From positions 1 through 11,268 of the forward strand of contig JAJPYV010000029.1 in the NCBI GenBank assembly GCA_021204735.1: a stretch of DNA of 11,268 bases, in the 5' to 3' direction. The DNA is from Prevotella sp. (GTDB lineage Bacteria > Bacteroidota > Bacteroidia > Bacteroidales > Bacteroidaceae). Numbering within the stretch: the first letter of the stretch is position 1; every line of letters starts with the position of its first letter. Both the position numbers and the translations under genes were made by a program. This document shows positions 9,102 to 11,268 of this stretch, piece after piece. Under the pieces are notes generated by a model that was given only the letters and a program-made list of their open reading frames with translations, was not told where the DNA came from and did no database searches.

Positions 9102-10238
9102 ATGAATACTACATTTGAATTAAACAACATCCGTAAAGATTCTGATGTTTTAACTACTAATAAAATTCGTAAGGGTTCCCCTGTAGTTGAGATTTTCTCT
9201 GCTATGGTTAATGGTGAATCTCTTGATAGATTTGATAAGAGAACGGCTGACAAGGCTGTTAATTATATTAAAGACCTTGGTTCTCGTGCCGATAATGGTG
9301 ACTATACTGCTGTTGCCGAACTGAACGCAATTAGGCGTGAAGTGCTTGAAACTCCTATCATGGAGGAAATCCAACTGCTTAGTATCTTTGGTGCTTATCA
9401 GGCTCTTGGATTTGATGAAACTGTTGAACGTGAAATCTATAAGCACGTTGGTGAGCGTTCTCGTGAACAAGCCGCTAATGGTGATGTCGTATTTCCGTCT
9501 ATCGTTAGGGAAACCTACCCTGTGCCTACTTTCACTGTTTCTGGCGGTTATCAGGTAGACTATCGTAGGGTTGCTCTGGGTGATATGTCTAGGGAAAATG
9601 AGGGCATGAACCAGGTTAAGATTGATATTATGAACCGTGCAAAATTGGCTATTATCAATCGTGTTTATAAGGCTATCTCTGAGGCAAGCGGCGTGAAGTA
9701 TCAGTTTGAGGGTGCCGGACTTACTAAGACTGGTGTTGATACTGTGCTTGGTAATGTAAGACGCTGGGGCAGACCTACTGTTATTGCTGATTATGCTCTG
9801 CTGTCTCAGTTTACTCCTTGGGCTGGTTATGTTGGTTCTATCAACTCCAACACCATTACTGGTATTTCTGAGCAGACCATGAATGAGCTTGCTGCTAATG
9901 GTATGCTGTCCACTTATAATGGTGCTATCCTCTCCGAGATGGCTAACCCTTATAACCTGTACGCTCCTACTGTTACTACTCAGGATGCTGACGGTAACGA
10001 TGTTACGAACTTCCAGACTCTTCTTCCTGCCGGACTGGGCTTCGTCATTCCTACTGGTGGTGATTCACCTATCAAGACTTGGACTAAGGGCGGCGTGACT
10101 TCCTTAACTGGTAACGATATTAAGAGTGGCAGAGTTATGACTCGTTTTGATGTTGAGATGGCTGTTGATGTCGCTAAAGAACAGGAGTACAAGGTTGGTA
10201 CTATCTATGATACTAATATCGGTGGACTGGATGCTTAA
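9102..10238 (+). CDS. Major capsid protein
   Basis: 378 residues, ATG 9102 with a strong AAGGAAGG-type ribosome site at 9084-9091. An N-terminal helical region (about 1-115, rich in Glu/Arg/Lys) is followed by a mixed body: VVFPSIVRETYPVPTFTVSGGYQVDYRRV, a long helix (NQVKIDIMNRAKLAIINRVYKAI), GRPTVIADYALLSQFTPW, and a C-terminal beta segment with GRVMTRFDVEMAVDVAKEQEY. That architecture and the gene order fit an HK97-fold capsid subunit. Codon choice looks simpler here (many GCT, GTT, CTT, TCT), as in highly expressed genes. It is followed directly by a terminator, suggesting a defined transcript end. Confidence 0.9.
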   Translation: MNTTFELNNIRKDSDVLTTNKIRKGSPVVEIFSAMVNGESLDRFDKRTADKAVNYIKDLGSRADNGDYTAVAELNAIRREVLETPIMEEIQLLSIFGAYQALGFDETVEREIYKHVGERSREQAANGDVVFPSIVRETYPVPTFTVSGGYQVDYRRVALGDMSRENEGMNQVKIDIMNRAKLAIINRVYKAISEASGVKYQFEGAGLTKTGVDTVLGNVRRWGRPTVIADYALLSQFTPWAGYVGSINSNTITGISEQTMNELAANGMLSTYNGAILSEMANPYNLYAPTVTTQDADGNDVTNFQTLLPAGLGFVIPTGGDSPIKTWTKGGVTSLTGNDIKSGRVMTRFDVEMAVDVAKEQEYKVGTIYDTNIGGLDA

Positions 10239-11055: not shown

Positions 11056-11189
11056 ATGAGCTATACAAGCGCAAGAGATGTATTTGACAGTTTTGAAGCC
11101 TCATTCAGAGATAAGAAAGTTATCCCAGAACAACTTGAATTGGTTTGGCTGTTAAAGGCGATTGGTAGATACTCTGTCGAGCTTGACCC
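11056..11189 (+). CDS. Truncated gene, candidate head-tail connector
   Basis: ATG 11056 with AAGGTGG just upstream (11044-11050). Some 44 native residues can be read, MSYTSARDVFDSFEASF then IPEQLELVWLLKAIGRYSVELD, before the sequence turns into adapter at about 11190. The apparent stop at 11200-11202 lies inside adapter and is not real. The start resembles, from memory, short connector proteins found after capsid genes, and the place fits, but too little is left to be sure. The last native bases may also carry read errors. Confidence 0.6.
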
Positions 11190-11268
11190 CTGTATCTTAT
11201 AAACATCTAAGAGCAAACTAGACTCCTGAGCCTCGCGTATGCCGTCGTCTGCTTGAAAAAAAAAAGGG
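11190..11268. other. Illumina Nextera adapter read-through (artefact)
   Basis: 11190-11208 matches the Tn5 mosaic end CTGTCTCTTATACACATCT with two differences. 11209-11223 matches the rest of the Nextera read primer site with five. 11224-11231 is TCCTGAGC, which I recall as Nextera index N704. 11232-11255 matches the P7 end (core GTATGCCGTC, then TCTGCTTG) with three. Then come ten A and GGG. All ten differences are A/C or G/T swaps, as in low-quality Illumina calls. This is not phage DNA. Confidence 0.97.

Follow-up and report, generated by a model that had tools for sequence, protein, structure and literature searches.

A damaged Nextera adapter at the end of a phage contig in a Prevotella genome bin

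Illumina adapter sequence has been described at the ends of contigs in both metagenome-assembled and isolate genomes, and exact 12-base TruSeq matches have been counted at the contig ends of MGnify genomes (Moeller et al., 2024; PMC11536531). The tail examined here closes the window, by which we mean the whole 11,268-nucleotide stretch that was analysed, contig C354 of a 438-contig Prevotella genome (G000) that is 81% complete. It is an artefact of this published kind and nothing about it is biologically novel. As in that report, Illumina adapter sits at contig ends, forward at the end of a contig and as the reverse complement at the beginning; unlike the TruSeq copies counted there, the copy in the window is Nextera adapter and is damaged, so that an exact TruSeq 12-base screen as described in that source misses it. 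A literature search that combined the 19-base mosaic end with adapter contamination of contigs found no paper, and a looser one on Nextera residues at contig ends gave a single candidate. What we add is a Nextera copy in damaged form, further damaged ends in the same assembly, and damage that probably explains why such tails survive.

Positions 11190-11268 are P7-side Nextera adapter that was sequenced beyond the insert, and are not biology. Aligned without gaps to these 79 bases, the adapter agrees at 48 of its 58 fixed positions, while the best other placements in the window reach 28/58 on the plus strand and 29/58 on the minus strand. A 34-base adapter pattern in which A was accepted as well as C wherever the adapter has C matches once in the window and in none of 200 shuffles. 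The letters of the mosaic end and the primer site are those that we take to be canonical, and intact copies of them were later found in IMG/VR contigs; the N704 index and the P7 primer letters are tabulated in Appendix B of PMC7589761. Mosaic end, primer site, 8-base index and P7 end follow one another without a gap in the order of a library molecule (Table 1). The preliminary description had named a sequencing adapter running from mosaic end through poly-A to GGG, and the alignment to the Nextera adapter set bears this out in its coordinates, its part order, its junction and its orientation, down to an exact N704 index. Its contrast of adapter with "phage DNA" needs rewording: the record belongs to a genome bin, so the DNA before the tail is a fragment of phage or prophage within it.

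Table 1. Parts of the window from the start of the last gene to the contig end.
Feature	Positions	Strand	Basis
Genuine portion of the last phage gene, 44 codons plus two bases	11056..11189	+	tblastn against L002-L006
Nextera (Tn5) mosaic end, 17/19; C>A at 11194 and 11202	11190..11208	+	ungapped adapter alignment
False stop codon TAA within the adapter	11200..11202	+	apparent 48-aa protein ending in CIL
Remaining read-2 primer site, 10/15; C>A at 11209, 11210, 11215 and 11216; G>T at 11219	11209..11223	+	adapter alignment
i7 index TCCTGAGC = N704, exact	11224..11231	+	adapter alignment; index table in PMC7589761, Appendix B
P7 end, 21/24; A>C at 11232, T>G at 11235 and 11247	11232..11255	+	adapter alignment
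Ten A, putative ten-T linker of the surface primer	11256..11265	+	adapter alignment
GGG, putative dark cycles of a two-colour instrument past the template end	11266..11268	+	adapter alignment

The window reads as a phage head module with a ClpP-like head protease, an exonuclease, an HU-like protein, a terminase and a portal. Its penultimate gene has relatives in five phage records, of which four are Bacillus phages; three of these four are named SPR or SPbeta. Genes for tRNA-Met (cat, 2732-2807) and tRNA-Ser (tga, 2810-2900) adjoin one another within the module. From 11056 the last gene has 44 codons plus two bases of its own before it meets the adapter, and a comparison across the junction with five IMG/VR phage relatives (L002-L006, located via the gene preceding the last one) gave tblastn identities of 47-78% and alignments that end at query residue 43-45. 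These relatives run on to a full length of 127-131 aa, and homology in the window ends at the junction, where, as had been claimed, the adapter supplies a false stop. The residues ELDP are common to the window and to L002, after which L002 continues with LTFD and the window with CIL and the stop; because CC followed by any base encodes proline, the P is real even though the third base of its codon is the first base of the adapter. When the remainder of the gene was sought in the window's own genome with the L003 protein, the window's contig alone matched, through two stop codons, and a search of the same bin for the next gene gave no match; as the bin is 81% complete, these missing pieces say little. 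The fragment itself was found among 60 congeneric genomes in the window's own genome only.

The damage in the tail follows a rule. Each of the ten mismatches exchanges A with C or G with T, as the preliminary description had it, an outcome with P = 1.7e-5 under equal odds for the three substitutions at each site. In a two-colour dye scheme A gives both colours, C red, T green and G none. Written in these two bits, all ten errors fall in the green bit and none of the 79 positions is wrong in red; along the tail the first seven errors are gains of green and the last three are losses. The A/C-G/T rule can be read as miscalling confined to one colour channel; on this reading the sequencing instrument would have been a two-colour one. 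Phasing and pre-phasing were tested as a cause and found no support, the wrong bit equalling that of the previous base in 6/10 cases and that of the next base in 5/10 (permutation p 0.73 and 0.90). The mismatches are spread such that the 19-base mosaic end holds two, every 21-27-base stretch of adapter holds at least two, and the first 12 adapter bases hold one. The very end of the tail is also informative: a ten-T surface primer carrying the P7 sequence has been described, on a laboratory slide rather than an Illumina flow cell (PMC11123353), and on the NextSeq 500 the absence of signal is called as G (PMC5217569). Ten A followed by GGG would fit read-through of a ten-T surface linker and then dark cycles.

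The preliminary description had suggested screening the other contigs of the assembly for the same tail and index. No second copy of the P7-side tail was found in the assembly beyond the window itself, and six other matches to the tail query (14-24 bases, E 0.19 or worse) are read as chance; the screen did bring out six further damaged Nextera contig ends. The P5-side adapter occupies C16:1-33 (31/33) and the start of C72 (29/34 fixed bases, with four mismatches in the mosaic end); the index in C72 suggests i5 S504, with one mismatch. A mosaic-end pattern allowing up to three mismatches occurs at six places in the assembly, in C16, C245, C250 (twice), C329 and the window's C354, and all six lie at a contig end, point outward and carry exactly two mismatches. 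With equal base odds, about 0.007 such places are expected within 100 bases of contig ends and 0.55 genome-wide; the reversed control pattern has three places in the same assembly. With C72, the damaged Nextera ends number seven. No place in the assembly has the mosaic end with 0 or 1 mismatch. In C245, at both ends of C250 and in C329, the adapter stops exactly at base 19, the border to the primer site, so that 4/6 places look as though they had been trimmed a second time from that point; the remnant stops at 33 in C16 and at 42 in C72.

The same picture was sought in 150 congeneric genomes, an even sample of a larger set, with the window's own included. The canonical 66-base adapter has matches in 9/150, those in G101 and G051 over 24 and 21 bases only, and the mosaic end with up to three mismatches is present in 52/150. 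Of these mosaic-end places, 49 fall in six genomes (G000, G038, G059, G067, G106 and G113), where the reversed control has 6; in the remaining 144 genomes the mosaic end has 60 places and the control 82, so that the places there are chance. Outside the six, G021 has a single one-mismatch place and G085 a single two-mismatch place. Among the matches listed for G038, the mosaic end is intact in 14/14 copies. The remaining five genomes have no place with 0 or 1 mismatch: 27 places have exactly two (G000 6, G059 10, G067 3, G106 6, G113 2) and eight more have three (G067 2, G106 5, G113 1). On the minus strand, all 11 two-mismatch places in G059, G067, G106 and G113 start at most 54 bases from the contig start. 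Since five genomes lack any copy with 0 or 1 mismatch while G038 has intact ones, we infer that a trimming step with a tolerance of one mismatch per 19 bases lies behind the five-genome pattern. Six G038 tails were read and the five long enough for it (L176, L184, L187, L190, L191) carry index N704, as does the window; the query itself contained N704, and the agreement may reflect either a shared library or chance.

Public collections hold both intact and damaged counterparts of the tail. The adapter occurs in at least 120 IMG/VR stretches; among the matches listed, 121/123 lie within 81 bases of a stretch end, and 120/121 of these end tails match perfectly over the first 34 bases, a count limited by a pattern whose only freedom was A in place of C and, at a single G, T. 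The intact tails of IMG/VR and G038 resemble that of the window in adapter order and contig-end position, and some share N704; they differ from it in that the window has 10/58 bases wrong. A mosaic end with C>A forced at base 5 was absent from the IMG/VR viral contigs and was found in 40 stretches of GTDB contigs (L136-L175), each pointing outward and lying at most 186 bases from the stretch end. These contig-end copies resemble the window's tail in their damaged mosaic end, and six of them likewise enter nine to eleven A and then G, in three cases directly or after G-A, in the other three across one or two other letters. Two or more mosaic-end mismatches occur in 14/14 tails of the SRR14411 series, 5/6 of the SC03 series and 8/20 of the others (SRR14411 against these others, Fisher p 2.4e-4). 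One mismatch is found in 12/20 tails outside the two series and in 1/6 of SC03, as well as at the one place in G021, and since such tails survive, a one-mismatch trimming rule is not universal. The GTDB tails also have mixed errors: past the first 24 bases, 52/106 ungapped differences are A/C or G/T, which makes the window's ten of ten purer than usual.

Several other copies deserve mention for their position or extent. In L066, a 9,673-base viral contig, an intact mosaic end and primer site lie mid-contig at 4953-4986 with sequence on both sides, adapter built into the assembly rather than left at its end. L135 ends a viral contig with a TruSeq-type tail (9245-9268) whose P7 part has a single T>G, at the same base as 11247 in the window. 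At the ends of L140, L146, L167, L169 and L121 the adapter is followed by more than ten A or by other sequence, and these tails extend up to 186 bases past the start of the mosaic end.

Taken as a whole, our explanation is Nextera read-through with one-channel miscalls that escaped trimming and was left on the end of a phage contig, to which we give a probability of roughly 98%. A short Tn5-tagmented Nextera library molecule, with an insert that to judge from the sequence ended at 11189, was read onward through the P7-side adapter with N704 to the P7 end, and the read may then have entered the ten-T surface linker and dark cycles. By count, the adapter shows confusion of A with C and of G with T and no other, which suggests poor base calling in a single colour channel. 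As the mosaic end holds two mismatches and any 21-27 bases hold at least two, the read would have escaped adapter removal, and the assembler would have left the adapter dangling from the end of the phage sequence. The damage is probably the reason that the tail survived trimming, although against this step a trimmer that used only the first 12 adapter bases, with one mismatch allowed, would have caught it. The same adapter might have stayed without being a trimming survivor, if the assembler collapses intact adapter and a unique damaged copy remains attached. That account needs no trimming assumption and would explain a long unique tail, but we think it unlikely: intact tails were kept elsewhere (120/121 in IMG/VR, among the matches listed and pattern-limited, and 14/14 in G038), and the absence of 0- and 1-mismatch copies from five genomes indicates a filter.

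A one-channel origin of the swaps has a rival of its own. On an early four-colour instrument the A and C channels and the G and T channels were correlated (PMC2575221), and because this cross-talk pairs the same bases, the A/C-G/T pattern alone cannot fix the instrument type. On that reading the swaps would come from laser cross-talk and GGG would be noise; it is doubtful, as exactly ten A and then GGG favours two colours, being better explained by dark cycles, and runs of nine to eleven A followed by G recur in 6/40 GTDB tails. As for a biological origin, the mosaic end derives from Tn5 ends, and the caution that the first 19 bases could be mistaken for a Tn5/IS50 end was well placed, given that 17/19 agree. 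A natural transposon end of this type at the end of a phage contig is nonetheless refuted by what comes after those bases, namely library oligonucleotides (primer site, catalogue index N704 and P7 end); the window has no second copy (one pattern match), and no transposase family was found in the 12 ORFs scanned with PHROGs and/or Pfam out of 37 listed. We accord it next to no credence, and read-through of a Nextera molecule stands as the explanation of the tail.

The tail has no role in the organism, and the phage gene is shortened on paper only. Gene calling should be preceded by trimming of the contig to 11189; otherwise a roughly 130-codon gene enters the record at 48 codons with the wrong C terminus, and the tail could be annotated as a Tn5-like end. 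Damaged contig-end adapters slip past exact-match screens and create false ORFs, and this copy has counterparts in its own genome and in public collections. It is an even question whether damaged tails are a widespread and under-counted contaminant that trimming selects, whose leftover mismatches would record the tolerance applied to each genome and which exact screens would miss.
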